This document shows, one piece after another, positions 12,188 to 56,518 of a DNA stretch of 64,000 nt. Location of the stretch: contig NZ_WJIE01000017.1 of the NCBI RefSeq assembly GCF_009649845.1, forward strand, positions 1-64,000, given 5' to 3'. The notes beneath the pieces are model-generated. The model had not been told where the DNA came from. It worked only from the letters and a program-made list of their open reading frames with translations, and did no database searches. Position 1 is the first letter of the stretch. Every line of letters starts with the position of its first letter. Origin of the DNA: Polyangium spumosum. Lineage in GTDB: Bacteria > Myxococcota_A > Polyangia > Polyangiales > Polyangiaceae. Position numbers and translations under genes: made by a program.

Positions 12188-12202
12188 AAAGGGGAACTGG
12201 CC

Positions 12203-12595: not shown

Positions 12596-12598
12596 GCG

Positions 12599-13932: not shown

Positions 13933-13936
13933 GGCG

Positions 13937-15571: not shown

Positions 15572-15583
15572 CGCGAGGTCACG

Positions 15584-18406
15584 ATGCCTTTCTTCGAATT
15601 GAGCTTCGATTGCGGTGAGTCCTCGCTCGTGGTGCGCCGCTTCTCGATCCACGAGGCGGTCTCCACGCCGTTCACGGCCTCGCTCTGGGTGCGCAGCGAG
15701 AACCCGGCCGTCGACATCGGCGCCATCGTCGGGCAGCCGGCGATCTTCAAGGTGCGCTCCGGCTACACGAACCTCACGGGCGGAGGCCTGCGCGTGTGGA
15801 GCGGGTACGTGAGCTACATGGAGCAGACGCACGCCGAGCACCGGCAGAACAAGGTGCTCTCGACGTACCATTTTCGCATCGTCCCGCACCTCTGGCTGCT
15901 CGATCAGCGCCGCAATCACCGCATCTTCCAGCACCTCTCGATCCCCGACATCGTCGACAAGATCCTCACGGAGTGGAACGTCCGGCGCGCGTGGAAGATC
16001 GATCGAGGGCAATACCCGAAGCACGAGTTCCGGGTGCAGTACGGCGAGACCGATTTCACGTTCATCAGCCGATTGCTCGAGGAGGCCGGCATCGCCTACA
16101 CGTTCCCGGACGTGGACGACAACGGCTCGCTGCTCACGTTCAGCGACCTGCTCCACAAGAACCCGCCGCGCCCCGGGCCGCCCGTGCCTTACGAGCACAA
16201 CCCGACGATGGAGGCCGAGCGCGAGTACGTCTCGAAGGTCTCCCTCGTGCGCGACGTGAGGCCGGGCGCGCTCGTCCTCCGCGATTACGACTTCCGCCGG
16301 CCCGATTACAAGCTCCTCGGCGAGGCGCCGAAGGCGAACGACGAGGCGCGGTTCGAGCAATACCATTACATCCCGGGCGGCATGTTCGTCGAGGCCGGGC
16401 GCGGGGGTGACACGCCGTTCGCGGACGACAAGGGCATCGCAAGGCACGATCAGCCGACCGGCGAGAAGCGGGCGACGCGCGCGCTCGAAGCGGCGCGGGC
16501 GGACCGCGGGGGGATCGCGTTCGAGAGCAACCTGAACGATCTCACGCCGGGCGTGGTGTTCCGCGTCGAACACCACCCGCACCCCGACCTCGCGCGGCCG
16601 CTGCTGACGACGGATACGATCCTCGAAGGGTCGGCGGAGGGCGAATGGCAGGTGCTCGGGCACGCGGTGTTCGCGGACGTGCCTTATCGGCCGCCGCTGG
16701 TCACGCCGCGCCCCGAGGTGCTCGGCGTGCAATCGGTGCGGGTCGTGGCGCCGCGAAACGGGACCGACCTCGACAACGCGGTCCACGTCGACGAATTCGG
16801 GCGCGTGCGCGTGCAGTTCCCCTGGGATCGCGAGGGCAACCTCGACGACGATAGCTCCTGCTGGATCCGGGTCGTGGAGGGCTGGGGCGGCGCGGGGTAT
16901 GGCTGGCTCAACCTGCCGCGCGTGGGGCACGAGCTCCTGGTCACGTTCATCGACGGCGACCCCGATCGCCCCGTGCTCGCGGGCCGCGTCTACAACGCCG
17001 AGAAGCCGGTCCCGTACAAGCTGCCGGAGCACAAGACCGTCAGCGCTTGGAAGAGCCAGTCGATGCCGGCCCTCAATGGGTACAACGAGATCAAGTTCGA
17101 GGACCAGAAGGGCGAGGAGCTCTTTTACATGCAGGCGGAGAAGAACCTCCGCAAGCTCGTGAAGAACGACGAGATCGACACCGTGGGCCACGACCGCGAC
17201 AAACTCGTGCAGGCCTGGGAGTTCGAGACCGTCGGCGGCAATCGCGTCCAGCACACCGAGAAGCAGCGGGACGAGATGAACGGGCGGCTGCAGCACATCC
17301 ACATCAAGGGCGACCGCCGGCAGCTCGTGCGCAAGGACGAGAACGAATACAACTTCACGCACCGACGCCTGCTCGTCAAGAAAGACCTCGACGCGGTGGT
17401 CAAGGGCGAGAAGCGCGAGCGCACGGAGTGGGACCTCCACCTCCGCACGCAGCAGGACCGGAAGGACCGGACGGGCAAGGACCACTCGCTCTTCGTGTAC
17501 CAGGAAAAACAGGAGAAGGTGGGCGGGAGTTATGCCCGGGAGGCGGGCAAGGAGATCCATTACCGGGCCGGCGAGAAGGCGTTCGCCGGGGCGCCCGACA
17601 TCACGCTGAAGGGGCCCGGCGGGTTCATCCGGATCGACGGCAGCAACGTGACCATTTCGGGGACGAAGGTGGACATCAACGCCGGGGGCAGCCCGGGGCA
17701 CGGGCACGGCGCGCGGCCGAGGGAGATCGTGAAAGCCGAGGAGGCCGTGCCGATCATCGGCGACGTCCACGTGCAGCCCGATTCGCCGGCGTTCGCGACG
17801 ATGAAGGCGCTCTGGGACAAGCTCGTCGCGGACCTCGCGGTCAAGCCGGAGGACCTGAAATACGCGCAGCTCAAGCGAATCGAGGAGCTCAACGAGATCG
17901 CCGCGAATGCGGACATCGAGACGCGCGAGAATGGGCTCGTGCTCTGGTCGGGCAAGGGGCCGCCGGTCGCGGGCACGGTCGCGCAGGACCTCGCCCGAGA
18001 GCGCACGGCCGAGGGGATCCCGTCGATGACGCTCGAGCAGACGCCGGGCGGGATCGAGCTCGGTCACCTGGGGTCGCGCGATCCGTGGGAGAACACGGAC
18101 GAGGCGTGGAGGATCGTCTCGAAGAGGCTCGCCACGCAGGCCTCGGGCGACGTGCACATCGTGCTCGGCATCGTGCCCATCCCGGAGGGGCGGATCGTGC
18201 GTGATGAAATCGAAATGCTCGCCAGCAACCCGAAGGTGACGTCGATCAACGTGCTGCAGATGGTGCCGAGCCCGACGGGCAAATACAAGGACGCGGGCGG
18301 CGCGACGTACGACCTCGAGCCCATCAGCATGCAGGAAGCGCTCGGGCTCGGTCCGCCGCCGCCGCCCGAACCCGAAGACGAAGGCGAAGAGGAGGCCGCG
18401 TCGTGA
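15584..18406 (+). CDS. vgrG: Evolved VgrG (VgrG2) with C-terminal ADP-ribosyl-cyclase/NADase-like domain
   Basis: Encodes 940 aa. Residues 1 to about 710 are a complete VgrG: gp27-like part, OB fold from about 401 (HVDEFGRVRVQFPWDREG), and beta-helix ending in the ITLKGPGGFIRIDG region. Beyond this lie about 230 extra residues. From about 755 to 905 they follow the order of the CD38/ADP-ribosyl cyclase fold: VLWSGK (Trp788), MTLEQT (Glu818), AWRIVSKRLA (Trp842, Ser846), then DVHIVLG and RDEIEML (Glu875). From memory of CD38 these align with Trp125, Glu146, Trp189, Ser193 and the catalytic Glu226. A Pro/Glu-rich tail ends the protein. NAD+ depletion in prey is inferred. Its stop overlaps the candidate immunity gene by 4 bp. 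Confidence 0.82.
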   Translation: MPFFELSFDCGESSLVVRRFSIHEAVSTPFTASLWVRSENPAVDIGAIVGQPAIFKVRSGYTNLTGGGLRVWSGYVSYMEQTHAEHRQNKVLSTYHFRIVPHLWLLDQRRNHRIFQHLSIPDIVDKILTEWNVRRAWKIDRGQYPKHEFRVQYGETDFTFISRLLEEAGIAYTFPDVDDNGSLLTFSDLLHKNPPRPGPPVPYEHNPTMEAEREYVSKVSLVRDVRPGALVLRDYDFRRPDYKLLGEAPKANDEARFEQYHYIPGGMFVEAGRGGDTPFADDKGIARHDQPTGEKRATRALEAARADRGGIAFESNLNDLTPGVVFRVEHHPHPDLARPLLTTDTILEGSAEGEWQVLGHAVFADVPYRPPLVTPRPEVLGVQSVRVVAPRNGTDLDNAVHVDEFGRVRVQFPWDREGNLDDDSSCWIRVVEGWGGAGYGWLNLPRVGHELLVTFIDGDPDRPVLAGRVYNAEKPVPYKLPEHKTVSAWKSQSMPALNGYNEIKFEDQKGEELFYMQAEKNLRKLVKNDEIDTVGHDRDKLVQAWEFETVGGNRVQHTEKQRDEMNGRLQHIHIKGDRRQLVRKDENEYNFTHRRLLVKKDLDAVVKGEKRERTEWDLHLRTQQDRKDRTGKDHSLFVYQEKQEKVGGSYAREAGKEIHYRAGEKAFAGAPDITLKGPGGFIRIDGSNVTISGTKVDINAGGSPGHGHGARPREIVKAEEAVPIIGDVHVQPDSPAFATMKALWDKLVADLAVKPEDLKYAQLKRIEELNEIAANADIETRENGLVLWSGKGPPVAGTVAQDLARERTAEGIPSMTLEQTPGGIELGHLGSRDPWENTDEAWRIVSKRLATQASGDVHIVLGIVPIPEGRIVRDEIEMLASNPKVTSINVLQMVPSPTGKYKDAGGATYDLEPISMQEALGLGPPPPPEPEDEGEEEAAS

Positions 18407-19020
18407 CCCATTCACCCATGTTCCAGCGCTTCGTCGAGAGCGTCGCGGGCAAAGGAACGCAATGGCGGGAGGACGTCGACATGGAGGCGCTCCGCGCGCT
18501 CGAGGACGAGGAGCGGCGCGAGGCGGAGGAGCTCCTGATGCGCCGCCTCGACGACAACGACACGCGCGCGGCGCGGGCGCTCGCCGAGATCAAATGCCGC
18601 GGCGCCGTGGCCCCGATGCAAAAGGCTTATCCGAACGCGAAGGGCCGCATGAAGGTGGCCATCACGCTCGCGCTGCGCGACCTGGAGGTGGCGCCGGCCG
18701 ATCCCATGATCGCCGAGATCCTTCGATCGGGGGACCTCGACGGAGGGGTGCCGGCGATCGCGGCGGCTCGCTCGATGAACACGCCGGAGATGGTGGACGC
18801 GCTCGCGTGGGCGGCCCTGCATCACCCGGATCCGAACGTGCGAAAGAGCGCGGGCTCGATCCTCATCTATCACTCGGGCGCAACGAACGACCCGCTCGCC
18901 TGGAAGCAGCGGCCGCTGTATTTGCCGCTCGGCTCGGAGGATCTCGCGGTCCGCCGGAGCGCGTTCCGGGAGATCTGCAAGATCGCGTCCTTCCCGCTGG
19001 AGCTCGCGGATACTTTGTAA
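18403..19020 (+). CDS. HEAT-like helical protein, candidate immunity to VgrG2 toxin
   Basis: Encodes 205 aa. Its GTG start overlaps the stop of VgrG2 (GTGA), so translation is coupled to that toxin-bearing gene. There is no signal peptide. Residues about 50-205 show repeated helical pairs of the HEAT type, for example around DDNDTRAARALAEI and HHPDPNVRKSAGSIL. A cytoplasmic location fits protection against an NAD+-consuming toxin that acts in the cytoplasm. Immunity is inferred from position and compartment only; a chaperone for the VgrG2 C-terminus is the alternative. Confidence 0.75.
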   Translation: MTHSPMFQRFVESVAGKGTQWREDVDMEALRALEDEERREAEELLMRRLDDNDTRAARALAEIKCRGAVAPMQKAYPNAKGRMKVAITLALRDLEVAPADPMIAEILRSGDLDGGVPAIAAARSMNTPEMVDALAWAALHHPDPNVRKSAGSILIYHSGATNDPLAWKQRPLYLPLGSEDLAVRRSAFREICKIASFPLELADTL

Positions 19021-19036
19021 TCGCGGAGGAACGAGC

Positions 19037-19723
19037 ATGTATCGTCTCACCGGATCGGTCGGGCAAGGCGGGCGCAACACGCACGACGACGTGCTTCTCG
19101 TCCAGAAGCAGCTCAACAAAAACGCGCATATCGCGTCCACGATCGGCGCCGTGCCCGAGACGGGGATCATGGACGAGGCGACGCTGCGCGCGATCCTCTC
19201 GTTCCAGCGCACGGTGGTGCGCCTCGGCTCCCCCGACGGGCGCGTCGATCCACACGGGCGGACCTGGCGCACGTTGCTCGGCGATCAGCCACAAGCGACG
19301 AACGTGGCCTTCGTGCAGCTCTCGGGGGAAAACGGGAATTTTTATCTGTACGAGCCGCAGGATCGGGTCTGGGGCACGCCCTCGACCATTCAATCGATCA
19401 AGAACGTCGCCGAGGTCTTGCGGCCGCACGGGTTCGAGATCGGGATCGGGGACATCAGCTTCCAGCAAGGCGGCCGGATGGCGCCGCACGGCTCGCACCG
19501 GCGCGGGACGGACGTCGACGTCCGCCCGGTGCGCGCAGACGGTCGGAGGGCGCCGGTGACGATCACGGATCCGAACTACAGCCACGAGCGGACGAAGCTG
19601 CTCGTGGAGGCGCTCCGCGCGGATCCGAACCTGAAGCTGATCCTGTTCAATGATTCGAAGATGCCCGGGGTGCGGCCCTGGGAAGGGCATCACAATCATT
19701 TGCACGTGCGGTTCGAGGAGTAG
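19037..19723 (+). CDS. Murein endopeptidase (MepA-like) with peptidoglycan-binding domain, candidate T6SS effector
   Basis: Encodes 228 aa, ATG at 19037 behind GGAGGA. Residues about 18-65 resemble a peptidoglycan-binding domain 1 (VQKQLNK then TLRAILSFQ). The rest follows the MepA (M74, LAS fold) pattern: HGSHRRGTDVDVRP with zinc ligands His154 and Asp161, and the C-terminal HHNHLHVRF with His223 as third ligand. Such enzymes cut peptide cross-links in the wall. There is no signal peptide, unlike housekeeping MepA, which fits delivery by T6SS. It lies 16 bp after the immunity candidate. No separate periplasmic immunity gene is seen. Confidence 0.85.
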   Translation: MYRLTGSVGQGGRNTHDDVLLVQKQLNKNAHIASTIGAVPETGIMDEATLRAILSFQRTVVRLGSPDGRVDPHGRTWRTLLGDQPQATNVAFVQLSGENGNFYLYEPQDRVWGTPSTIQSIKNVAEVLRPHGFEIGIGDISFQQGGRMAPHGSHRRGTDVDVRPVRADGRRAPVTITDPNYSHERTKLLVEALRADPNLKLILFNDSKMPGVRPWEGHHNHLHVRFEE

Positions 19724-19739
19724 CTCGAGCCGCGCTCTT

Positions 19740-22226
19740 TCACCTCGAATGCTGCACCCGGCCGATGGCGAGGGCCTTGAGCGCGGCCGGGTGTGGCTCG
19801 TACTGGTCTTCCTGGTAATAAAGCTCGGCGATCAGGCGCGCGCGGAACTTCTGGAAGAGGGGGAGCCTCTTCGTGATGTCCTCGGGGAGGTAGACGGGCG
19901 CGGGGCGGGCGCCGGTGCCGGTGGTCGTGTGGAGGTGGGCGCGAATCGCGGTCATCCCGAGGATCTGGCGCTTCTGGTAATGGCGGCCCTCGACGAGCGC
20001 GCGCTCCATCTGCAGGTCGAGCGTGTCGGCGCTGAGGGCGCGCCGGGCCTTCTGGAAGGCGTCGCGAATACGCAAGGTGTAGCCCTCGATGATCGGCGGA
20101 GGGCAGAGGTGATCGGGCGTCGCCAGAAATTCGCGGGCCTCGCGGATGGCCGTCTTGAGCCCCTCGTCCGTGCCCGCGACGGGCGTCGACACGGCCACGG
20201 CGGCCTCGAGCGTCTTGCGCTCGTCGAAGGGGAACGAGAGCTCTCCGGAGAGCAATAACAAGGAGGGGACGAACTTGTTGCCCGGACGAACGGCGGCGCC
20301 GAGCTCGGCTTCGAGCTGATCGACGTCCTGGGAGGCCCCACGCGAGAGGATCTCGAAGATGTCGCGGGTGTCCTCGATCTCGATGGGGTCCTTCGTGGGG
20401 GCCGGATCGTCGAGGGTCTCGTCGGCGGGTTTCTCCTCCATTTCGTCGAGGATGGCGCGCCATACGGGGACGCGGCAAATGCGGGCGACGGCCTCGGGGT
20501 TGTACCAGATCAAATGGAGGACCTCGCGGGCGTCGAGCCGGCCCGAGGGGCGGACGCCGGCGCCGAAGGCCGTGGGCGAGATGCGGCCGTCGTCGCGTTT
20601 GCCCGCGGAGGTCGTCGTATTCGAGCCCGCGGCGGCGTTGGAGGCGCCGAGGACGCCGGCGCTCGCGTCCTGCGGGGAGGCTTGCGCGGCGGCGGTGGCG
20701 GCGGCGACGACGACCTGGCCAATGGACGGCGCCGGCTGCGGCTGGACAGGCGCGGGCGGAGGAGGCGGGGCGACGACGGGCGGCGGCGGCGGGGCCGCGA
20801 CGGGCTGCTGGCCGGGGAGGGTGGACTTCCAGCTCGGCGACGAGGGGCGCGCGGGAGGCGGGGGCGGCGTGGTCTTCGCCTGCGGCGGGGGCGGGGCGGG
20901 GGGCCAGGGGGTCGGCTTGGCGAAGGGGAGCCCGCCCGAGGGCGTGGTCCGTTCGTCCCAGGTCGCCCGCGGCTGCGCGGGCTGCGTGGGTTGTGCGGTC
21001 GCGGCGAAGGGCAGGCCGCCCGAGACCATCGTGCGTTCGTCGGCGATGTTGTGGGCGGGCGCGGCGGCCTTGACGAAGGGCAGCGCCTTTTGCTGGCGCG
21101 GCGGCGCGCTGAACTCCGGTGGAATCACGGTATCGATGCCCTCATCGTCCTCGGCGATCATGGTCATCGTGGTGGCGCGCGGCTTGGGCGGCGGGGGAAT
21201 GGCCGGGTCCTGCGCGACGGGCCTGCCAGGGACGGAGGGCCCGGGGGCGATGGGGACGACGGTCGTGGCTTCGTCGAGGGTGAGCACGATGCGGCCGGGC
21301 TCTTCGAGGCGCTCGAGCTGAATGCGGCCGCGGAAGGTCAAGGTGGCGAGCTGGCGATCGGTGTCGATCCAGAGCGTATCGCAGAGCAATGCGAGGACGT
21401 GCGCGCCGCCCCGCCCTTCGAGCACGGCGCGGGGCCGGAGGCCCGGCAGATTGGTCACGAGGCGCGGGACCTGCGGGTGCATGTTTTCGAGGACGACACG
21501 CGCGTCCTCGGCGAGCTCGGCGAGCTGCTGGTCGCCGGGCGCGACATTGAAATACGAACGATCGAAATCCTCGGGCAAGGGGGCAGCGATGAGGGAATGG
21601 GGGGAGAAGCCCTGGGCATGACGACCGAGCTTGCCGCGGCGGAGGGGCCACTCCGGGGGCATGGGGCCGAAGCCGACGGACGGAATGGGGGTGGCCGGGG
21701 AGCTCACGTTGAGGCCGGGGGGCTGGAGGTTCGGGAGCTTGAGGCGGCCGAAGGAGTCGCGGACGTCGAGGCGGACGCCGACGGGGTTCGAGGTCTCGGG
21801 CCCCCCCGCGGCGCGCTCGTAGGCGAGGGACATGCGGGAGAAGCGCTGGCCCTCGACGAGGGTGCCGTCGGCGGTGAAGGAGCGGTCCTGGTGGACCTCG
21901 ATGGATTTGTCGATGTCGCCGACGATGAGGCGCGCGAAGAGCGAGCGGACGGGCAGCCCCTGGGGCGCGAACGCGGAGCCGACGAGGACGACGTCGACGC
22001 GAGACTTGACGGGGGCGAGGTCGCTCGGGGCGAAGAGGCTTCGGCCGTCGTCGTCGTCCCAGTAGCAGTCCTCCTCGTGGACGGGCTCCTGGGCGGTGGC
22101 GAGCGGCGATTTGCCCGGCTGGATCTGGCACGTCGCCTTGGCGACGAACGTGAGCGTGAAGGCGCCGGGTCCGGACTGCCAGATCATCGAGGCGACCGGC
22201 AGCGGAGAGAGGGAAACGACCTCCAT
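19740..22226 (-). CDS. DUF2169 protein (T6SS-associated) with Pro-rich central region
   Basis: Encodes 828 aa. The first 320 residues match DUF2169 by eye (an N-terminal beta-rich domain beginning with FTLTFVAKAT), a family regularly encoded beside vgrG and PAAR genes and thought to act as an adaptor. Residues about 330-540 are Pro/Ala-rich with repeated TMVSGGLPFA-like units. The C-terminal 290 residues form a second, helical domain I cannot name. It is convergent with the effector operon. TAACCT ends exactly six bases before the ATG and no Shine-Dalgarno is present, so a leaderless transcript is likely. Confidence 0.8.
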   Translation of the reverse strand: MEVVSLSPLPVASMIWQSGPGAFTLTFVAKATCQIQPGKSPLATAQEPVHEEDCYWDDDDGRSLFAPSDLAPVKSRVDVVLVGSAFAPQGLPVRSLFARLIVGDIDKSIEVHQDRSFTADGTLVEGQRFSRMSLAYERAAGGPETSNPVGVRLDVRDSFGRLKLPNLQPPGLNVSSPATPIPSVGFGPMPPEWPLRRGKLGRHAQGFSPHSLIAAPLPEDFDRSYFNVAPGDQQLAELAEDARVVLENMHPQVPRLVTNLPGLRPRAVLEGRGGAHVLALLCDTLWIDTDRQLATLTFRGRIQLERLEEPGRIVLTLDEATTVVPIAPGPSVPGRPVAQDPAIPPPPKPRATTMTMIAEDDEGIDTVIPPEFSAPPRQQKALPFVKAAAPAHNIADERTMVSGGLPFAATAQPTQPAQPRATWDERTTPSGGLPFAKPTPWPPAPPPPQAKTTPPPPPARPSSPSWKSTLPGQQPVAAPPPPPVVAPPPPPAPVQPQPAPSIGQVVVAAATAAAQASPQDASAGVLGASNAAAGSNTTTSAGKRDDGRISPTAFGAGVRPSGRLDAREVLHLIWYNPEAVARICRVPVWRAILDEMEEKPADETLDDPAPTKDPIEIEDTRDIFEILSRGASQDVDQLEAELGAAVRPGNKFVPSLLLLSGELSFPFDERKTLEAAVAVSTPVAGTDEGLKTAIREAREFLATPDHLCPPPIIEGYTLRIRDAFQKARRALSADTLDLQMERALVEGRHYQKRQILGMTAIRAHLHTTTGTGARPAPVYLPEDITKRLPLFQKFRARLIAELYYQEDQYEPHPAALKALAIGRVQHSR

Positions 22227-44734: not shown

Positions 44735-45559
44735 CTATTCCCGCACCCACTTCACCCGGCCAAACCGCGAGGCCCGGTGGAAGTTCCCCATCCCGAGGAT
44801 CGGGGACCAGGCGACGCCGCCGTTGTTCTGCATCGCATAAAAGTTCATCCGCCACACATCCCCGGACGCGGGCGGCGACGCCTTCGCCTTGAGGAACGAT
44901 TTCCAGGGGATCTTCGCCTCGACGGTGTACCCCTCGTCCTTGTCCTTGTCGTCGTCGATCGTGCCGCGCAGGACGACCGCGCTCTCGAGCCCCGCGCTCC
45001 ACGCCTGGTGCCCGAAAGGCCCGGCCGGACCGCCATAAGGTTTGCCGTAATCGTCGAACCGCGAGTCGAAGACCAGGTTCTGCGGGTTCACCTGGATCTC
45101 GTAATAATCCTTGTTGTCCCCGTCGCCGTCGGGGTCGATCATGATCTCGACGGTGTCCCGCTCCCAGAGGTGCGGATCCAGCGCGTCCGTGGGGAAACCG
45201 CCGCGGATCGTCGCGTCTTTCACGTCGAACCCGACATAAAGGAACTGGTCGTCCCAGACGATACGCGCGCGGCCCTGCACGGGGATCCGCGGGTTTGGCG
45301 CGCCAGTCGACACGTCGACGAACGGGCCCGTGTCCGCGGCCTTGCCCCACGCAGGTTCGTCGAGCTTGCCGTCGATCGTGATCGTCTCGCCCGACGCGAG
45401 GGCCTTGACGGTGATCTCCTTGATCACGCGCCGCGGATCCTCCGCCGGCGCGCCCTTCTTGTCCGCCTCCGGCGGGGCGATCGAATCTCGCGAGCACGCC
45501 GCCGCGAGGAGCGCGCACGCGACGAACGGCGAGGCTCGACGCATGCGCGCGCTCGCCAT
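44735..45559 (-). CDS. CBM9-like lipoprotein
   Basis: Encodes 274 aa. Its ATG overlaps the stop of ffh (TAATG). The signal peptide ends in LLAAAC. From about residue 55 it follows the family-9 carbohydrate-binding/DOMON-like pattern: ITIDGKLDEPAWGKA, then ARIVWDDQFLYVGFDVKD, then ERDTVEIMIDPDGDGDNKDYYEIQVNP. Such domains bind sugars or other ligands at the cell surface and often stand alone. It is the last gene of the ffh operon, with 9 bp to the convergent deiminase gene. Confidence 0.85.
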   Translation of the reverse strand: MASARMRRASPFVACALLAAACSRDSIAPPEADKKGAPAEDPRRVIKEITVKALASGETITIDGKLDEPAWGKAADTGPFVDVSTGAPNPRIPVQGRARIVWDDQFLYVGFDVKDATIRGGFPTDALDPHLWERDTVEIMIDPDGDGDNKDYYEIQVNPQNLVFDSRFDDYGKPYGGPAGPFGHQAWSAGLESAVVLRGTIDDDKDKDEGYTVEAKIPWKSFLKAKASPPASGDVWRMNFYAMQNNGGVAWSPILGMGNFHRASRFGRVKWVRE

Positions 45560-47232
45560 TACTTCCGGCCCTTCTTCCGCGCGTCGCGCTCGCGCTTGCG
45601 TTGCGACTTCTTCGCGTTTTTCTCGGCCTGGCTCAGGGTGCGCATCTTCGTCATGCTCGGCCCCTCGGCGCCGCCGCCCGGCATCCCCATGCCCGGCATG
45701 CCCATCCCGGGGAAACCAGGCATTCCCATGCCCGGGAAGCCCGGCATGCCCATCCCGGGGAAACCAGGCATCCCCGGCATCCCGCCCATGCCCGGCATCC
45801 CCGGCATGCCCGGCATGCCGCCGCCCATGCCGGCCATGGCCTTCTGCATGTTCCGCATCTGGGCCATCTGCTTCATGCCCGGGATCTTGCCCATCATGCC
45901 GAGGTTCTGGCCGAGCCCCGACATCATCTGCTTCATGAACAGGAACTTCTGCACGAGCTCCGCGACGGCCTCGGCCGTCGTCCCCGAGCCCTTCGAGATA
46001 CGCTCGGCCCGCCTCGGCTCGCGGATCAGCGCGTACGGATCACGCTTCTCGAAGCGCGTCATCGACTGGATGATCGCCTCGATCCGCACGAGCTCCTTGT
46101 CGTCGAGGTTCACGTCCTTGGGCAGGCCGCCCGGGAACATGCCGCCGAGCGGGAGCTTGTCGACGAGGTCCTTCAGCGACCCCATCTTCTGGATCATGCG
46201 GACCTGCTCGAGGAAGTCGTCGAGCGAGAAGTCGCCCTGGAGCAAGCGCTCGGCGTCCTTCTCGGCCTTCTTCTGATCGACGACCTGCTCGAAGTCCTGC
46301 ATGAGGCCGACGACGTCGCCCATGCCGAGGATGCGGCTCGCCATGCCGTCGGCGCGGAACTCCTCGAACTTGTCCGTCGTCTCGCCGATGCCGCTGAAGA
46401 GCACGGGCGCGCCCGTGACCTCCTTGATGCTGATCGCCGCGCCGCCGCGCGCGTCGCCGTCGAGCTTCGTGAGCACGACACCGCTGATGCCGAGCCGCTC
46501 GTGGAAGGACCGCGCGGTCTTCACCGAGTCCTGGCCGATCATCGCGTCGACGACGAGGAAGATGTTCTCCGGCGCGACACGCGACTTGATCTCCGCGAGC
46601 TCCTGCATGAGCTTCTCGTCGATCGCGAGCCGGCCCGCGGTGTCGTAGATGATGACGTCGCGGCCGAGCTTCTTCGCCTCGGCCTCGGCCGCCGCGCAGA
46701 TCTCGACGGGCGTCTTGCCCGCGATGTTGAAGACCGGGATCTTGATCTGGTTGCCGAGCACCTTGAGCTGCTCGACGGCCGCGGGGCGCTGCATGTCCGC
46801 CGCGACGAGCATGGGCTTCTTGCCCTGCTTCGAGATGTACCGCGCGAGCTTGGCGCAGGTCGTCGTCTTCCCCGAACCCTGCAGACCCACCATCATGAGC
46901 CCGGTCGGGCGGCCCGACGCCCACACGATGGGTTCCCCCTCGTGCGCCATCATGGCCTCGAGCTCGTCGTGGCAGATCTTGACGAAGTGATCACTCGCCG
47001 AGACCTGCATGGTCTCGCCCTCGTGTTTCACCTTCGCGTCGAGCGTGCGGCCGACGGCCTTCGCCTTCACGCGGCTCAAGAAGGCCTTCACGACGCCGAT
47101 CTCGACGTCCGCTTCGAGCAAGCTGAGCCTCACCTCGCGAAGCGCGGGCTCGATGTTGGACTCGGTGAGCTCCGTGAGCCCCGCGAGGCGGTTTCTGGCC
47201 TGCCGAAAACCTCGAGCGAGCGTGTCGAACAT
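45559..47232 (-). CDS. ffh: Signal recognition particle GTPase Ffh with Met/Gly/Pro repeat tail
   Basis: Encodes 557 aa, longer than the usual 450-500. The NG domain is normal: P-loop [10 protein letters not shown] (116-125), [15 protein letters not shown]. The M domain shows [10 protein letters not shown] and [10 protein letters not shown], close to the family motif. After the M-domain helices, residues about 464-517 consist of GMPGMPG and three GFPGMGMP units, then a basic tail. Ffh binds SRP RNA and signal sequences and delivers ribosomes to FtsY at the membrane. It is the third gene of a four-gene leftward operon. No obvious Shine-Dalgarno precedes the ATG at 47232. Confidence 0.95.
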
Positions 47233-49727: not shown

Positions 49728-50561
49728 ATGAAGAACTCGATCAAGCTCCTCATGGCGGCGGCGCTCGCCACGAGCGCACCCTTCCTGAGCAGCGAGGCTC
49801 TGGCGGACGGCGGCTACGACTACGGCCCGCAGTTCGGGCAGGTCGACGCCAAGTTCCTCGACAACGGCGATGTGCAGCTCGGCTTCGAGCAGTCGAACAT
49901 CCGGCGGCAGTGGGGCCGTTACTCGATGCAGGCCGATCTCCAGACGTCGTACCGTTGCCTCGATCGGCGCGGGCAGTACACGGGCGGCGTCATCACGCGC
50001 CGCAACCCGTGGCAGGACGCGGGCTCCTTCCAGGCGAGCCGCCAGGGCATCATCCGCGGCCAGTTCCTCATGCCGCGCGGGCACCTGCTCGGCCGCGACG
50101 CCTGCCGCGGCAGCTACGAGAGGCCGGTGATCATCCGGATCTCGCTCGCCGATCTCCGCCTGCTCGACGAGACGAACAACAAGTACCACTACCGGGATCG
50201 CGTGACCTGCGGCGGCGACTACGGGTACGACGCGCCGCAGTACGTCCCCGGCAAGGGCGAAGGCCAGTACGTGCCCAGCAAGGGCGAAGGCCAGTACGTG
50301 CCCGGCAAGGGCGAAGGCCAGTACATCCCCGGCCAGATCGATCAGCAGTACGGCGCCGAGGGCCAGTACGACTCGCAGTACGACAGCCAGTACGACTCGC
50401 AGTACGACTCGCAGTACGGCTCGCAGTACGGCTCGCAGTACGGCTCGCAGTACGACGCCGCCCCGCTCGGCGGTCAGTACAGCAGCGGCAAGGGGGAAGG
50501 GCAGTTCGGCGTCGGCAAGTCCGACCTGGGCAAGAGCGGCGGATACGCGCCGGTGAAGTGA
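49728..50561 (+). CDS. Secreted protein with Gln-Tyr repeat tail
   Basis: Encodes 277 aa, ATG at 49728 behind a strong AAGGAGAGG. The Sec signal peptide probably ends after SEALA near residue 26. Residues 27-168 form a compact domain with two possible disulfide Cys pairs and no known motif. The tail has three nine-residue units (QYVPGKGEG type), then eight four-residue units (QYDS or QYGS), then Gly/Lys-rich sequence. Repeated Tyr/Gln/Gly resembles adhesive or matrix proteins. Secretion is supported; a role in extracellular matrix or surface coating is inference. Confidence 0.8.
   Translation: MKNSIKLLMAAALATSAPFLSSEALADGGYDYGPQFGQVDAKFLDNGDVQLGFEQSNIRRQWGRYSMQADLQTSYRCLDRRGQYTGGVITRRNPWQDAGSFQASRQGIIRGQFLMPRGHLLGRDACRGSYERPVIIRISLADLRLLDETNNKYHYRDRVTCGGDYGYDAPQYVPGKGEGQYVPSKGEGQYVPGKGEGQYIPGQIDQQYGAEGQYDSQYDSQYDSQYDSQYGSQYGSQYGSQYDAAPLGGQYSSGKGEGQFGVGKSDLGKSGGYAPVK
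50238..50459 (+). repeat. 27-bp and 12-bp coding tandem repeats
   Basis: Three 27-bp units lie at 50238-50318 and eight 12-bp units at 50364-50459, all in frame within the secreted protein gene. The 12-bp units begin CAGTAC and differ mainly at the third or fourth codon. Confidence 0.85.
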
Positions 50562-50637: not shown

Positions 50638-51813
50638 TCACCACGACCCTTCGCGGAGTGGCTCGGCCCCGAAGAGCTCGGCGAGCACCTTGCGGTACTG
50701 ATCGGCGAGCCGCACGAGGTCGTGGAAGACCGCAGCGACGTCGTGCTCGCTCGCGAACGCCGTGACGGGCTCGGAGAACGAGAGCACGACGACGTCCGCC
50801 GCGAGCGACAAGCGGCACACGCCCGAGGTCTGATCGTTCGCCGTGAGCAAGAGCCGGTAAAACGGCTCGTGGTTCGACGAGGGCAGACGCACGAGCGGCA
50901 CGCGCAAGATCACCTGCAGGCCCGCGCCGTCGAGGCGCACGGTCACCTCGGAGGGCGTCGCGTCTCCGCCGAGCGCGCGATGATGGATCCGCCACGACCG
51001 CGGACCCACGCGCGCCTTGTTGGCGACGATCCCCAGCGCGCCGAGCGCGTCGCGCACCACGCGCTCGGCCCCGGCCGACTCGGTCTCGAACGCGTGCGGC
51101 AAGAGGATCCCGCACGACTCGCAACGATCACTCTCCGCAGAAAACGCCTCGGTGCAGCCAGGGCAGCGGTGGATGAGGGTGCGATCACCGAGCCCCTCGG
51201 CAGGCACGTCGAGCGCGCGGAGGTCACGCGAGAGGAGCCCGACGGGCAGGAGGTTCCGGGCACGATCGAGCGGATCCCGACCGCCGCGCCGCCCCGTCGT
51301 GATCACGCCGATCACCCTGCCCGCCGCGTCGATCACGGGCGAACCTCCGCGCCCGGCGCGCGGGCCGAGGTCGGGATCGAGCGCGGCGAGCTCGCCGCCG
51401 CGGCCCTCGGCGCACACGACGGCCATCGCCGTCACGAGCGCGTCGCCCGGCGTCGCGATCAGCGTGGTGACGGGCTCGCCGAGCCGCGGCACAGGATCGG
51501 CGCGCAAAGGCAGCGCCGGCGCGCCGAGCGGCTCGAGCGGGAGCACGAACGCGAGGTCCCGCTCGGCGTCCACGGCGACGACGCGCCCCGCGGCGCGCCT
51601 GCCCTCGTCGGTCGAGAGCGTCACCTCGGCCCCGAAGCCGACGGTGCGCCAGCTCGTCACGATCACGCCGTTGCCGAGCGCGACCCAGCCCGTGCCGATC
51701 GACGCGCCCGAGGCGACCGTCACGACCGAGCGGCGCGCCACGCCGAGCACGCTCTCCCCCGGGCCACCTTGCTGCATGGGATCCTCGAGCGTCGAGGCGA
51801 TACGCGAGCTCAT
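50638..51813 (-). CDS. Trypsin-fold protein with degenerate active site and zinc ribbon
   Basis: Encodes 391 aa, ATG at 51813 overlapping the upstream stop (ATGA). Residues about 25-200 follow the S1/HtrA-like layout: IGTGWVAL, IVTSWRTV, DAERDLAFVLPL, GRGGSPVIDAAGRVIGVIT. By eye the catalytic His is replaced by Arg56, Asp86 is kept and the nucleophile Ser is replaced by Gly156 (a Ser lies two positions later). Residues about 214-232 form a CPGC/CESC zinc ribbon, and the last 150 residues resemble a type III chaperone-like or sensory fold. No signal peptide. A non-catalytic binding role is inferred. Its partner is the next entry. Confidence 0.75.
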   Translation of the reverse strand: MSSRIASTLEDPMQQGGPGESVLGVARRSVVTVASGASIGTGWVALGNGVIVTSWRTVGFGAEVTLSTDEGRRAAGRVVAVDAERDLAFVLPLEPLGAPALPLRADPVPRLGEPVTTLIATPGDALVTAMAVVCAEGRGGELAALDPDLGPRAGRGGSPVIDAAGRVIGVITTGRRGGRDPLDRARNLLPVGLLSRDLRALDVPAEGLGDRTLIHRCPGCTEAFSAESDRCESCGILLPHAFETESAGAERVVRDALGALGIVANKARVGPRSWRIHHRALGGDATPSEVTVRLDGAGLQVILRVPLVRLPSSNHEPFYRLLLTANDQTSGVCRLSLAADVVVLSFSEPVTAFASEHDVAAVFHDLVRLADQYRKVLAELFGAEPLREGSW

Positions 51814-53543
51814 CCGGACGCGATCCTCTTCAGCGCCGTCATCATCAGCTCGAGCGCCGCCTGCTTGGGCACGTCGCGATGCGCGTGCGCCACGATCTCC
51901 TTGAGCCGCTGCGACGTCTGCTGCGGCAAGCGCGTGCGCGACAGGAGCTCCGTCAGCGCGCCGAGCGCGAGGAAGTGGCGGAGCGTCACGTCCTGGGGCG
52001 CGAGCTCGATCTCCTCGACGTACCGCGCGAGGTGCTCGCGCGCCTGCGCCGCCGTCGCGAGCGGCTCCACGAGGAACGCCCGCTCCTTCGGGAGAGCCGC
52101 GCGCGCCGCGACGATCCGCTCCATCGCGAGCAGCACGGGCTCGGCCATCGGGATCGGCGACGACGACCTCTTGCCGCCGACAGGCTCGCTCGGCCAGAAG
52201 GTCCGCGTCACGCCCGACGCGCTCCGGTAGAGGTACGAGACCGCGTCGGGCACCTGCTCGCCGAACTCGTAGATCGCGCGGTAGACCGCGGCGCGTACGA
52301 GCAAGAGCATCGTGAGCGGCCGCTCCTCGTAGCTCAGCGCCGTCGCGAGCGCCTGCGCCTGATGCAAGAGCTCGCAGAGTTTGTCCGCGGGCGTCAGGGC
52401 CCTGCGGGCCGCGGCGTCGTCGAGGTCCGGCGAGCCTGGTCGCGCCGCGCCCTCGACCGCGGGCATGCCCGGCACCGTGCGCCTGCGCGCGCCGGGCGAG
52501 GCGAAGGGCATCGGCGTCGTGAGCGACGGGATCGCGCCGAGGCGCGCCGTCTCCGGCGGCGGCTCGCGGTCGATCGGAGGCGGCGCGGCGAACGCGGACG
52601 TCTGCGGGACGCCGAGCCGCGCGGTCTGCGGCACGCCCTCGGGCGAGGGCGCGAGCACGGGCGGCATCCCGTCTTCCCCGCGGAGCGTATCCGTCAGCCC
52701 GAACGGCGCGAGCACCGGCGGCAGCTCCTCCTCCGCGACGGGGCCACGCGACGCGTCGGCCGCGAACGCCGGCGCGAGGATCGGCGGCAGATCGTCGTCG
52801 GGCGGCGACGCGTTGTCCGCGGGCCGCAAGGTCGACGGCGGCGGCGGCACGACCGATCGCCTTTGCGGCGCAGGCTGCAGCGTGGAGAGCGAACGCTTGC
52901 GCCCGAGCGACTCCCAGCCTCCGCCTCCGCGCGCGTCTCCGTGCGCCGCGGTGCGCGCGTCGAACGACGCGACGAAGATCTCCGCGTACCGCTCCGACGT
53001 CGCCATCATCTCGCGGATCACGTGCCGCACGAGCGGCGGCGGGGCCGCGCCGAGCTGCGTGACGAAGCGCAGGAGGAGCAGATCGTCGCGCAGGCAGACG
53101 CGTGACGTCATGGCCTCCGCGTCGCAGAGCTCGAGCGAGAGCCGCATCGCCGGGACACGCTGGCTGCGCGGCAGGCGCGCCACCGGTGACTCCGCGATGA
53201 GGTGCATCGACTGCATGTCGAGCGACAGGAACACGCTCGACTCCTTGCCGATGAGCGCCCAGCCCGGCCCCTCGGGCAGGTTCACCGCGCGCGCCGTCAG
53301 GTTCGTCTCGGCAGAGACCACGAGGCCGAGCGCGCGGGCGTACTCGCCGCGCCGGAACGCCTCCGTCGCCCGCTCGAGGTTCGAGGGATCGAGCGCCGCG
53401 TGCCCGCGCGGCACGAACCTGCGCATCGAGTCCTCGAGCGCGAGCGGGGCGCGGTACTCGCCGCAGGCGTCGCAGCGTGGCCCGTGGACGGGCCATCCGC
53501 ACACCGTGCAGAACTCCCGGGCCGTTCGGCTCGCGGCTCCCAC
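51810..53543 (-). CDS. Zinc-ribbon protein of unknown function, partner of the trypsin-fold protein
   Basis: Encodes 577 aa from the GTG at 53543. That start puts a zinc ribbon (CTVCGWPVHGPRCDACGEY) right at the N-terminus, and TATCCT ends 7 bases upstream; the frame stays open 13 codons further. Residues about 30-190 form a folded domain; residues about 200-370 are Pro/Ala-rich with repeats like PPVLAP and PQTARLG; the C-terminal 200 are helical. Such cytoplasmic zinc-ribbon proteins with long linkers are common in myxobacteria. Translation is coupled to the trypsin-fold gene by ATGA overlap, so the two probably form a complex. Confidence 0.7.
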   Translation of the reverse strand: MGAASRTAREFCTVCGWPVHGPRCDACGEYRAPLALEDSMRRFVPRGHAALDPSNLERATEAFRRGEYARALGLVVSAETNLTARAVNLPEGPGWALIGKESSVFLSLDMQSMHLIAESPVARLPRSQRVPAMRLSLELCDAEAMTSRVCLRDDLLLLRFVTQLGAAPPPLVRHVIREMMATSERYAEIFVASFDARTAAHGDARGGGGWESLGRKRSLSTLQPAPQRRSVVPPPPSTLRPADNASPPDDDLPPILAPAFAADASRGPVAEEELPPVLAPFGLTDTLRGEDGMPPVLAPSPEGVPQTARLGVPQTSAFAAPPPIDREPPPETARLGAIPSLTTPMPFASPGARRRTVPGMPAVEGAARPGSPDLDDAAARRALTPADKLCELLHQAQALATALSYEERPLTMLLLVRAAVYRAIYEFGEQVPDAVSYLYRSASGVTRTFWPSEPVGGKRSSSPIPMAEPVLLAMERIVAARAALPKERAFLVEPLATAAQAREHLARYVEEIELAPQDVTLRHFLALGALTELLSRTRLPQQTSQRLKEIVAHAHRDVPKQAALELMMTALKRIASG

Positions 53544-53633
53544 CGCGCAGAGGATAAAGCGAACCCGGCCCTCCGCGGGCACAATGTGCGCCCTGCCGTG
53601 ATCCGGGCCGCTTTTTCCGGCCTTTCGCCTCGA

Positions 53634-55592
53634 TCAGATCAGCGGGTTCAGGTGGAGCGGCGCCCGCGTCTCCCGCAGATCCACCTGGATACGCCGCACG
53701 AAATGCGCCGCAAACGCGGCCCAGGTCACGAACGTGACCACCCCGCTCACGAGCCCCGCGTTCCGGCCGAAGCCGATCGTCGTCGAGGCGAGCGTGCCGA
53801 GCACGACGAACGCCGAGGCCACGATCGCGAGCGGCACGAACCATCGCAAGGCGATCCGCGACCGCTGCTCCGCGCCGAGCCGCGGCAGCGCCCAGCGCAG
53901 CCACACCACCGAGAGCACGAGCGCCCAGCTCTTCAGGAGGAACAGGAGCGCGCCCAGGATCTTCAGCGCGCCTTCGCTCTCCTGCGCCGCGCCCGGCACG
54001 CCCGGGATCTGCCAGCCGCCGAGGAAGATCGCGCTCGCGATCCCGCAGGCCACGAACACGTGCGCCCACTCCCCGAAGTAGAACAAGAGCTGCCGCGCGC
54101 TCACCCTCGCCGGCGGCGCGAGCTCGTCCCCGCTCGCCTCCGCCTCCCGGAGCGCGGACGACGCGCGCCCGTCGGCCGTGATCATCGACGTCAGGAACAC
54201 GAGGAACAGCACGAACGTCGCCGGGTTGCGGAACACGAACCAGTGCCAGGGCCACCCGCCCGCGTCGAGCGGCGATCCGCCCTGCCCGCCTTGCGCCGCC
54301 ACCATGTCCTCGAGCCGGAGCGATCCCGTCGAGAGCACGACGCACACGATCGCCACCACGGCCGGCAGCTCCTGCAAGAGCACCCGCCCCGCGCCGCGCA
54401 AGCCTCGCAGCACGGACCACGGCTCGCTCGCGAGCGAGCCTCCCGTCACGAGAGCGAGCCCGAGCAGCGACGCGAGCGCGAGCAGGAAGAGCATCCCCAC
54501 GTCGAGGTCCGCGCCCACGAGCCGCTGCGAGAACGGCATCACCACGAACGTCGTCGAGATGGCCGCGAACGCGAGCACCGGGGCGAGCTTCGACAGGATC
54601 GGATCGGCGTCCGGCGGCGCGATCGCCGAGGCGACCTCGCGGTGCACCTCCGAGGCGAGCCGCGCGACCGGCGAGCGCGCCGCCGCCTTCTTCCCGGACC
54701 GCGCAGACGCGAGCCGCGACGCGACGCGGCGCACGAGCCACGCCACCAGCGCGCCGAGCGGCGTCGCGAACACCAGCATCGTCGCCGCCGACAAACCGAG
54801 GATGATCGCCGCGCCGAGCAGGTCCGACGGCGCGCTCGCGTGGAAGCCCTCGATCGAGATCGGCACGGCCCGCGGCTCCTCCGCGCGGCGCTGCACGACC
54901 ACGATCGGCGCGCGCTCCTCGCCGCTCGGGATCACGTCGGCCACGCCGGTCACCTTCACGCCCTCGAAGCTCGTGATCACGTCGCCGCCCTCGATCTTCG
55001 CGGCGGCCGCGGGGCTGTCGGGACGAACCGCCGCCACCACGAGCCCGCTCGACGTGGGCGCGTCCTTCGAAACCGTGATCCCCAGGAAGTCGAGCGCCCG
55101 CTGCCCGTCGCGCTCGCGGGCCAGCGCGACGGCGCGCCGCGGCGCCTTCGGCCGCACGTCGAGGATCACGTCCTTGACCGAGCCCGTCACCGGCAGCGCG
55201 CCTTCGGACTTCGTCTCCAGCGTGACCGTCACGTCGCCGCGGAACGTCGTGTGCGCCGACTCGTCCCCCTGCCCGCAGAACCGCGCGACGAGCGCCTCGC
55301 TCACCTGAGCGCTCACCTTGTCGGTCGTGATCTTCGCCTTGTCGACGACGATCGTCTGCCCTTCGATCGCCGCTTCTCCGGGCCGCTTCAGCGTCCCGCG
55401 GAACGTGATCGTCGCCTCGCGCGCGTCGCCTGTCGGCAGGTTCGTCCCGAGCACCTCCAGCCGATCGCCCGACTCGAGCTCGCGTGGCGCCACGTCGACC
55501 ACCCGGAGGAGGTCGGGCGCGGTGTCGTTCACGTTACAGCCCGCCGCCAGGATGCAGGCGAGTGCGAGCGTGATCCATCGAGGTCCGGGCAT
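53634..55592 (-). CDS. Lipoprotein joining a PDZ domain to a NuoH-like membrane domain
   Basis: Encodes 652 aa. The signal peptide ends in LAAGC (lipid Cys19). Residues 25-150 are beta-rich, possibly an IPT/TIG-like sandwich. Residues about 168-245 read as a PDZ domain (FLGITVSK, VAAVRPDSPAAAAKIEGGDVI). From about 255 on there are eight or more membrane segments with NuoH features: TGGSLASEPWSVLRGLRGA, QELPAVVA, an EAEASGDELA segment in the place of the EAE loop, YFGEWA, and FLGGW. NuoH is the quinone-site subunit of complex I, but no other nuo genes lie here. A quinone- or lipid-linked membrane protein is inferred. Confidence 0.75.
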   Translation of the reverse strand: MPGPRWITLALACILAAGCNVNDTAPDLLRVVDVAPRELESGDRLEVLGTNLPTGDAREATITFRGTLKRPGEAAIEGQTIVVDKAKITTDKVSAQVSEALVARFCGQGDESAHTTFRGDVTVTLETKSEGALPVTGSVKDVILDVRPKAPRRAVALARERDGQRALDFLGITVSKDAPTSSGLVVAAVRPDSPAAAAKIEGGDVITSFEGVKVTGVADVIPSGEERAPIVVVQRRAEEPRAVPISIEGFHASAPSDLLGAAIILGLSAATMLVFATPLGALVAWLVRRVASRLASARSGKKAAARSPVARLASEVHREVASAIAPPDADPILSKLAPVLAFAAISTTFVVMPFSQRLVGADLDVGMLFLLALASLLGLALVTGGSLASEPWSVLRGLRGAGRVLLQELPAVVAIVCVVLSTGSLRLEDMVAAQGGQGGSPLDAGGWPWHWFVFRNPATFVLFLVFLTSMITADGRASSALREAEASGDELAPPARVSARQLLFYFGEWAHVFVACGIASAIFLGGWQIPGVPGAAQESEGALKILGALLFLLKSWALVLSVVWLRWALPRLGAEQRSRIALRWFVPLAIVASAFVVLGTLASTTIGFGRNAGLVSGVVTFVTWAAFAAHFVRRIQVDLRETRAPLHLNPLI

Positions 55593-55601
55593 GGCCCGGG
55601 C

Positions 55602-56414
55602 TTATCCATCGCGCCGCGGAGAAGGGCCAAGTTGAGGGCGGACCGGCAGGAAATACCGGGCGTTGTCGAGCTCGTTCACCCCCACGTAGAGCTCCGCCTC
55701 GAACACCTCCTTCAGGCGCCGGTACGTCATGACCTCCTCGATCGACCCGTGCGCCACGAGCCTGCCCGCCTTGAGCAGCGCGATCCGATCGGCGTACTGC
55801 GCGGCGGCGTTCAGGTCGTGCAGCACCATCAGGCACGCGAGCCCTCGCTCCTGCACCTCGCGACACACGAGCTCCGACAGCGCGATGAAGTGCCGCACGT
55901 CGAGGTGCGCCGTCGCCTCGTCGAGCAGGAGCACCGGCGCCTCCTGCGCGAGCGCCCGCGCGATCGCCACCCTCTGCTGCTCGCCGCCGGACAGCTCCGC
56001 GACGCCCCGCCCCGCGAGCGACTCGAGCTCGCACGCGGCGATCGCCCTCTCCACCGCCTCTTCATCGTGCTTCGACGCGCGCATCCACGCCCCCTGGTGC
56101 GGCGCGCGCCCCATCATCACGATCTCCCGGACCGAGAACCCCACCGCGGGCTCGGACGTCTGCGGCACGAGCGCGATCCTCTTCGCGATCTCCCGACGAT
56201 CCAGGCGCGAGAGCGGCTCGCCGAGGATCCGTACCTCGCCACGCTGGGGCGGGAGCGCGCCCGAGATCACCTTCACGAGCGTCGACTTCCCGGCGCCGTT
56301 CGGGCCGAGGACCGCGCAAATCTCGCCTTTTCGCACGGAGAGCTCGATGTCCTCGAGGGCGAGGCGCCCGGACGCGTAGCGGACCGAGACCCGAGACAGT
56401 TCGATGGCATTCAT
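55602..56414 (-). CDS. ABC transporter ATP-binding protein, heme/siderophore (FecE/HmuV) type
   Basis: Encodes 270 aa from the ATG at 56414. Walker A is GPNGAGKST (37-45), the signature LSGGEQQR, Walker B VLLLDEATAHLD, and the switch His in VLHDLNAAAQYAD. The closest recognisable group imports iron-siderophore, heme or cobalamin through an outer-membrane and periplasmic relay. No permease or binding-protein gene is adjacent, so its partners must be elsewhere. It begins 9 bp beyond the NuoH-like gene in the opposite sense of reading order: it is transcribed first, and the NuoH-like gene lies after its neighbour's stop on the other side. Confidence 0.9.
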   Translation of the reverse strand: MNAIELSRVSVRYASGRLALEDIELSVRKGEICAVLGPNGAGKSTLVKVISGALPPQRGEVRILGEPLSRLDRREIAKRIALVPQTSEPAVGFSVREIVMMGRAPHQGAWMRASKHDEEAVERAIAACELESLAGRGVAELSGGEQQRVAIARALAQEAPVLLLDEATAHLDVRHFIALSELVCREVQERGLACLMVLHDLNAAAQYADRIALLKAGRLVAHGSIEEVMTYRRLKEVFEAELYVGVNELDNARYFLPVRPQLGPSPRRDG

Positions 56415-56518
56415 GGTATCCGCGACATTTCCGCCTCTCGGACGATTCACGCAGTCAGCACCTTGCGCATGTCCGTCACAGGTGGTCCAATTCGTTCGAG
56501 CCGCGCGAAGGGGAGATC

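Follow-up and report, generated by a model that had tools for sequence, protein, structure and literature searches.

PDZ-NuoH', the subject of this work, is a protein of Polyangium spumosum encoded in the stretch of 64,000 nucleotides that we analysed (positions 1 to 64,000 of contig NZ_WJIE01000017.1; hereafter the window). In it a lipoprotein signal, a beta-sandwich and a PDZ domain are joined to a membrane domain with the fold of NuoH, the quinone-site subunit of complex I; the prime denotes the eroded form. That this is an orphaned complex I subunit, eroded on one side and fitted with a PDZ head, is a real finding; what it does, we infer. To judge from sequence comparison it very probably descends from the NuoH of a second complex I, of the 11-subunit type, and the best overall explanation, to which we assign a probability of about 0.6, is that selection keeps a ghost membrane arm with a periplasmic function. 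PDZ-NuoH is not mentioned in the literature returned by full-text searches, and the main text of a genome-wide survey of complex I contains neither 'myxo', 'pdz' nor 'orphan' (PMC12361115).

The initial annotation had described a lipid-anchored beta/PDZ part of the periplasm joined to a NuoH-like membrane part, and on this point lipobox, Pfam and structural models agree. Pfam places PDZ_2 at residues 170-222 (E 4.5e-8) and NADHdh (PF00146) at residues 270-596 (145.5 bits, E 2.8e-42), where a whole-genome search also put its NuoH match (147.7 bits); at E up to 0.1 it returns NADHdh and PDZ families alone, with no protease domain anywhere in the chain. A Cys follows the hydrophobic signal, so that lipidation is predicted from the sequence, and a lipobox-type Cys recurs in 40 of 41 homologues, being missing in G122 (G numbers denote genomes, L numbers loci and f numbers families of the order). 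An AlphaFold2 model made from the window protein and 28 relatives (predicted local distance difference test, pLDDT, 77.4; predicted template modelling score, pTM, 0.58) matched NuoH/ND1-type chains in the 50 VIA rows listed, with Z of 23.7-26.2 over about 270-330 residues, and its best Foldseek E was 2.3e-12; a different fold for the membrane part, named at the outset as the refuting outcome, was not what the model showed. Site-2 proteases, proposed for comparison, can be left aside: HExxH, which we take to be their zinc motif, was not found by eye in the window protein, whose fold is that of NuoH. A separate model of residues 25-252 (pLDDT 89.3) contains a PDZ domain of the HtrA/DegS type (Z about 10), preceded by a beta-sandwich whose matches, to a type II secretion chain, NFAT1, plexin and antibody domains, are all weak (Z 5-7). 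The C-terminal motif [NSD]P[FWLY][LIV] closes 34 of the 41 homologues. Unfused NuoH proteins from metagenome-assembled genomes (MAGs) of Gemmatimonadetes, Latescibacterota, Binatia and Deltaproteobacteria (L132, L133, L137-L143) in several cases end similarly, in HLNPFI, HVNPLI or YLKPYV, and such a tail may mark a clade of complex I; since it occurs on some unfused NuoH of other phyla (L141, L142), the HLNPLI tail of the window protein was probably inherited.

The NuoH-type match is far beyond chance: 138 of the 144 genomes of the order match the window query, the weaker matches being in part ordinary NuoH. Among the matches listed, a profile made from just the beta/PDZ part gave near-full-length hits in families f1, f3, f5, f6, f8 and f10 of the order and, of the 282 genomes of the phylum searched, in G273, G351 and G312 of the class; the remaining matches from the phylum cover mainly the PDZ. 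To grade the membrane half we defined universal residues as the 69 alignment columns at least 90% identical in 36 unfused NuoH (16 NuoH1, 4 NuoH2 and 16 from named loci). The 41 PDZ-NuoH proteins scored fall into two classes, 12 that keep 67-69 of the 69 ("canonical") and 29 that keep 16-46 ("eroded"), the window protein keeping 33; L031 (at a contig end), L054-L059, L066, L067, L070 and L073, among them the most eroded fusions, stand outside this set, and L028, L051 and L052, which had no automatic start, were cut by rule. Named records are found in both classes. Sorangium cellulosum So ceGT47 and a Sorangium MAG have an intact NuoH half (68-69 of 69), as do four MAGs labelled Polyangiaceae, Myxococcales or Myxococcota (68-69 of 69), and two named Myxococcales MAGs are eroded, at 24 and 19 of 69.

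Canonical proteins go together with a second complex I. At least 10 of the 144 genomes have a nuoD2 that shares 71% identity or more with its G072 counterpart, other listed matches reaching at most 46%, and each of the 10 genomes listed has a canonical NuoH half; the other two of the 12 canonical genomes, G090 and G114, have a second NuoJ and a gene of the M2 type (nuoM2). Two NuoJ were found in 11 of these 12, the exception being G143 (89% complete) with a single one, and in none of 13 eroded genomes tested. The clusters of complex I-2 that we read consist of nuoABCD, nuoIJK and nuoLMN, mostly at separate places; nuoE, nuoF and nuoG were not seen in them, some genes being named by eye, and no nuoH was found in the 10 nuoABCD-2 clusters read. 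On the contigs of these clusters no NuoH was matched save that of complex I-1 in G133, about 1 Mb away, and exactly two full NuoH and two NuoD were counted in G066, G072, G074, G143, G136, G108 and G140 (G133 and G109 have an additional, low-scoring hydrogenase-like pair). Because nuoABCD-2 lacks a nuoH while each of these genomes has two full NuoH and two NuoD, the canonical PDZ-NuoH serves, by elimination, complex I-2: in these species the fusion is the NuoH of a complex I of the 11-subunit type. Such a complex is known, for example from Desulfitobacterium hafniense, its electron donor being described as an open question (PMC11238625). G133 also carries a truncated second copy of nuoD2, of 103 amino acids, about 2.3 kb from the intact one (L109, about 12.9-13.1 kb; G133:C2:1003406).

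In P. spumosum itself the gene stands outside any nuo operon as far as tested, as first proposed. The host complex I-1 is encoded in two parts: contig C5 holds A B C D G H I, and contig C1 holds E F J K L M N (letters A, B, C, E, F, G, I and K of the gene clusters were assigned by eye from the sequences). The genome's single NuoD match, on C5, and single NuoJ match, on C1, both belong to complex I-1, and NuoD is single in all six genomes of the window genus; a second Nuo set lacking its own nuoH was thus not found in the host, NuoA, NuoB and NuoC not having been searched separately, and pairing of PDZ-NuoH' with an orphan peripheral arm was dropped as a candidate on these counts. Other antiporter-type genes of the host were taken from the PF00361 matches listed, which are not necessarily all. 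PDZ-NuoH' is not the NuoH of the host complex I, which is encoded elsewhere and is intact, and a tree separates the PDZ-NuoH proteins, as a single clade (100/99), from 16 NuoH1 and 4 NuoH2. Two operon NuoH proteins, at L117:8272-10041 and L118:9694-11460, are unusual in another way: at about 590 residues against the usual 330 or so, they apparently contain a large insertion near the N-terminus.

The window genus has, by the evidence of trees and gene order, been shown to lie inside the canonical clade and to have lost complex I-2. In a tree of NuoD1, NuoG1 and NuoH1 the canonical genomes, the window genus, G130 and G134 make up one clade (16 of 23 rows, 100/100), within which the window genus, G130 and G134 are three separate eroded lineages, the starred branches forcing four changes of class. 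In the tree of the beta/PDZ domain, too, the window genus and G130 fall within a group of canonical proteins (99/95). Between the flanks where G133 and G108 have nuoIJK-2, the site is empty in the window genome and in G096: dapA there adjoins the gene that follows nuoK2 in G133. At the deep nodes of the order, where the eroded proteins of other families sit on long branches, the canonical clade may instead have had its NuoH half replaced later; the window genus lies inside that clade whichever history holds.

Erosion of the NuoH half is one-sided. NuoH has its N-terminus in the periplasm, and we set sides and segment ends by hand from the model helices and this known topology. The 29 eroded proteins together keep 25% of universal residues on the cytoplasmic side (44 columns), 51% in transmembrane (TM) helices (19 columns) and 97% on the periplasmic side (6 columns); the window protein keeps 12 of 44, 15 of 19 and 6 of 6, and the 12 canonical relatives 96-100% in each cytoplasmic segment. 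A further 19 fusions, among them the most eroded and three from elsewhere in the class (L054-L059, L066, L067 and eleven others, fitted to the existing alignment), retain 96 of 836 residues on the cytoplasmic side and 88 of 114 (77%) on the periplasmic side. The cytoplasmic face of NuoH is where the peripheral arm is met, and the quinone cavity is formed with NuoB and NuoD (PMC8357420); in the window protein the loops that meet NuoB, NuoD and NuoI, and the cavity, are not conserved. Fisher tests and a rank test of erosion ignore kinship and were not taken as probabilities. The quinone-site motifs picked out in the initial annotation have intact versions in relatives and are partly worn remnants here.

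The gene is nonetheless still under selection and does not look like a pseudogene, as its open frame in all six sampled members of the genus and its ratio of nonsynonymous to synonymous substitution rates (dN/dS) of 0.13-0.33 attest. The ratio is 0.12-0.29 for the NuoH part and 0.06-0.18 for residues 601-652 (7 pairs listed); for comparison, eleven neighbouring genes gave 0.07-0.29, two fast ones 0.5-1.4 and NuoH1 0.38.

Two further subunits of complex I-2, NuoL and NuoM, are retained in eroded form. In several eroded genomes the PDZ-NuoH' gene is followed, on its own strand, by one for an eroded NuoL (L') and then one for an eroded NuoM (M') with an N-terminal extension; PDZ-NuoH', L' and M' are consecutive in this way in 13 of the genomes read (G057, G051, G122, G063, G129, G098, G015, G080, G124, G132, G084, G118 and G034). 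G015 has L' and M' in one gene of 1254 amino acids; in G139 a 1017-residue gene bearing M' adjoins PDZ-NuoH', and no L' part was detected in it. All 7 M' compared with canonical NuoM2 share 31-38% identity with it across 658-688 alignment columns, and the one tested scored 42 bits with Pfam; L' gave no Pfam match at E 0.01 in the three tested. Among the matches listed, M2-type proteins occur in at least 40 of the 144 genomes, the 12 canonical ones and 28 others. In the window genus L' and M' are fused, in the window genome (Table 1) and in all five sampled genus mates (1276-1279 amino acids), and in all six members the upstream genes near the fusion are those also found near nuoLMN in G133, with no nuoN after it. 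Remnants of N2, J2, K2 and I2 were not found among the called genes of the ghost loci read: the search matched L- and M-type proteins (cross-matches) and the other, unfused complex of L071/L072.

These L' and M' proteins have largely lost the charged residues of a proton-pumping antiporter-type subunit, which we located by motif, the names and positions of helices TM5, TM8 and TM12 being as we presume them. M' lacks the TM5 Glu and the TM8 Lys in 21 of 21 cases (the latter is Arg in the window genus) and the TM12 Glu in 19 of 21, all three being kept in six NuoM2 and in the host NuoM1. L' has lost the TM5 Glu in 18 of 19 and corresponds, in the window genus, to roughly the first two thirds of NuoL. 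Full conservation is stated for E144 of NuoL (PMC4938563). The NuoL and NuoM of complex I-2 are shown by these comparisons, so far as sequence can tell, to survive as eroded proteins without TM5 and TM12 Glu, joined into one in the window genus; the set of TM5 Glu, TM8 Lys and TM12 Glu by which we judged proton pumping is not present in L'M'. The dN/dS of the fusion is 0.28-0.36. The extensions of NuoL and NuoM have no significant Pfam match and so no named fold. NuoL2 contains an inserted soluble domain, PEGA-repeat-like by eye and without a Pfam match (L205:8018-10657, L263:9457-9984); one Arg near the start of the insert is kept in 19 of 19 eroded NuoL. Directly after the NuoL'-NuoM' fusion of G096 come type I restriction-modification-like genes (L264:10366-12625), and genes of matching length follow it in four other genus mates, not in the window genome.

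As sequence comparison shows, relatives without complex I-2 have retained the PDZ-NuoH gene, but its cytoplasmic face, with the docking surface for NuoB, NuoD and NuoI and the quinone cavity, has eroded and the periplasmic loops have stayed. On the reading that we propose, PDZ-NuoH' and the NuoL'-NuoM' fusion would form a membrane assembly that carries out no electron transfer and probably pumps no protons, acting through its periplasmic domains with the membrane parts as scaffold. The PDZ of DegS binds hydrophobic C-termini, and by analogy the lipid-anchored beta-sandwich and PDZ might bind exposed hydrophobic C-termini in the periplasm, a suggestion that we consider rather doubtful. More broadly, and with somewhat less than even confidence in the whole, we tentatively picture a complex I turned more than once in Polyangiales, after its electron-carrying and quinone-reducing subunits had gone, into a non-redox machine of the envelope that does not pump protons either, the subunits kept being those with extra soluble domains, H, M (a periplasmic beta domain) and L (the inserted domain); these periplasmic domains would already have had a second job, as a peptide-binding or sensing head, where complex I-2 is still intact, as in Sorangium and other relatives. 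Of the options left by the initial annotation, part of an unknown membrane complex is thus the one favoured, the likely partners being eroded NuoL and NuoM encoded outside the window.

Several observations weigh against the ghost membrane arm. The association of H' with L'M' is proposed from gene adjacency in the 13 genomes and from shared retention, and in the window genome L'M' is on a different contig from PDZ-NuoH'. In complex I, A, J, K and N separate NuoH from NuoL and NuoM, so that the old geometry cannot simply persist. Of the 29 proteins classed as eroded, 14 come from genomes without an M2-type match among those listed; H' may act without L' and M', or these may be too eroded for detection. 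In the M' of the window genus Arg stands in for Lys at TM7 and TM8, a mild substitution, and the M' half still scores 151 bits with Pfam Proton_antipo_M. The periplasmic side offers just 6 universal columns, under a topology set by hand, and one pair has a dN/dS as high as 1.05 over codons 476-500 (25 codons). The beta/PDZ tree groups G134 with f6 proteins, not with the canonical clade, which makes its history less clear; because of this placement only two losses, those of the window genus and G130, are backed by both trees.

A last point against it, that Glu408, Glu483, Glu485 and Glu508 are still present in all six proteins of the window genus, means that PDZ-NuoH' may have kept some residual proton or quinone role, and leads to the idea, voiced for quinone in the initial annotation, of a sensor of quinone or proton-motive force that would use the NuoH-like cavity and report to the periplasmic PDZ. 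Lys554, kept in 29 of 29 eroded proteins, would suit it too. But the quinone cavity of complex I is formed with NuoB and NuoD (PMC8357420), the host has no second NuoD, and Glu408 is kept in only 13 of the 29; with most of the cytoplasmic residues gone as well, the idea is weakened, and we consider such a sensor unlikely.

A decaying relic, a functionless gene wearing away after the loss of complex I-2, could account for the 36 universal residues lost from the NuoH half and for relatives in which the C-terminal membrane part is barely recognisable (at most 31 bits in the f3, f5 and f10 members tested). It does not account for frames intact in every genus member, for dN/dS within the range of the neighbours, for an architecture kept in several families, lipobox included, or for a periplasmic side preserved at 97% in the 29 eroded proteins and at 77% in the 19 further ones, and it seems to us improbable. 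Poorer still are the prospects of an alternative NuoH swapped into host complex I-1 under some condition, with a periplasmic regulatory domain: the fold is right and the gene is an intact NuoH in relatives, but the cytoplasmic contacts are mostly gone, the operon NuoH1 is intact, the two proteins belong to separate clades, and erosion accompanies the absence of the second complex. Hardly credible, finally, is the HtrA-like pair of the initial annotation, in which the PDZ protein would recruit substrates for the trypsin-fold protein encoded nearby: the PDZ is of the HtrA/DegS type and the neighbour has a Trypsin_2 domain, but alignment with DegS puts Arg and Gly at what we take to be the catalytic His and Ser positions, no signal peptide was seen in it by eye, so that it should be cytoplasmic and the PDZ periplasmic, and its gene adjoins that of the PDZ protein in close relatives only.

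Table 1. Position of PDZ-NuoH', its parts, its neighbours and the L'-M' fusion (window coordinates unless a contig is named).
Feature	Position	Strand	Remarks
PDZ-NuoH' gene	53634..55592	-	652 aa, ATG start; lipoprotein signal, beta-sandwich, PDZ, NuoH-fold membrane domain, ninth TM helix, conserved C-terminal tail
Signal sequence and lipobox, Cys19 (residues 1-19)	55536..55592	-	Cys19 invariant in 23-row alignment
Beta-sandwich, weakly Ig/IPT-like (about residues 25-147)	55152..55520	-	Model; fold matches Z 5-7
HtrA/DegS-type PDZ (about residues 168-244)	54861..55091	-	Pfam; VIA Z about 10 to DegS/DegQ PDZ; Gly171 invariant in 23 rows
NuoH-fold membrane domain (about residues 255-605), eroded on its cytoplasmic side	53778..54830	-	Pfam, fold matches, residue counts
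Ninth TM helix and C-terminal tail ending HLNPLI (residues 606-652)	53637..53777	-	Tail conservation, dN/dS
ABC-transporter ATPase	55602..56450	-	Directly upstream of PDZ-NuoH'; kept in 10 of 34 neighbourhoods
590-aa protein (577 aa in the initial annotation)	51810..53582	-	Downstream; sub-threshold zinc-ribbon match only
391-aa trypsin-fold protein	50638..51813	-	Trypsin_2 E 2.2e-13; pseudoprotease without catalytic His and Ser
L'-M' fusion, 1288 aa	G000:C5:530790-534656		Window genome, other contig than PDZ-NuoH'

Neighbourhoods of PDZ-NuoH genes were readable in 34 of 38 cases: L039, L043, L057 and L066, in which no PDZ gene was called, are out, L042 and L206 were partly called and L272 was read by frames. 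The pair of genes for 590 and 391 amino acids follows PDZ-NuoH in 5 of the 34, all close relatives; the co-occurrence with these two neighbours that had been put forward as a check therefore extends no further, and a conserved operon with them was discarded. PhaR and a sigma factor lie on the other strand in 13 of the 34, and these two and the ABC ATPase look like stable synteny, not parts of a complex. Elsewhere in the window, positions 49728-50561 (+) encode a secreted-looking protein with QYDSQYDSQYGS-type repeats, whose dN/dS of 1.06 and 1.37 against two genus mates reflects either fast evolution or misaligned repeats; 10025-22226 holds what by eye is a type VI secretion effector-like cluster, with a PAAR-like gene at 12230-12595 and a large VgrG-like gene at 15584-18406; and 45559-47232 (-) encodes, again by eye, Ffh, the signal recognition particle protein, with a long Gly-Met-Pro-Phe repeat tail.

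How PDZ-NuoH' stands to known systems can be stated part by part. It shares its membrane fold with NuoH/ND1 (VIA Z up to 26 over about 300 residues, beside the Pfam NADHdh match) and differs in its lipid-anchored beta/PDZ domain, its eroded cytoplasmic interface and its being encoded alone, in a genus without a second NuoD or NuoJ. The complex I-2 of relatives, with A B C D, I J K, L M N and an H contained in the PDZ fusion, resembles the 11-subunit complex I (PMC11238625), but its genes are split over several loci, its H has lipobox, beta-sandwich and PDZ and its M a periplasmic extension, and what was found in the window genus is H', L' and M'. With HtrA and DegS it has in common the fold and sequence type of the PDZ, which here is attached to a NuoH fold without a protease domain. 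Mrp antiporters and DAB-type complexes are ion-moving systems related to complex I, and they too have membrane subunits of the NuoL/M type outside complex I; L'M', in contrast, mostly lacks the TM5 and TM12 Glu and the TM8 Lys, and a NuoH-type subunit with periplasmic domains is kept with it.

If the ghost membrane arm is real, Polyangiales would span in natural steps the way from a complete 11-subunit complex I to a membrane arm stripped of the rest, the loss having occurred repeatedly within one family, and one could ask which components of complex I remain useful once redox chemistry is gone. Its intact end would be a complex I whose NuoH bears a periplasmic PDZ head. At the other end NuoH, NuoL and NuoM would have been freed from coupling, so that the residues still constrained would report on structure or on a periplasmic role and those lost on coupling. 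Automatic annotation may call such genes NADH dehydrogenase subunits, and complex I would then be overcounted. The meaning is larger than that of the reading from which we started: beside an orphaned subunit eroded on one side there is evidence for a gutted membrane arm, which points to respiratory parts put to a new use.

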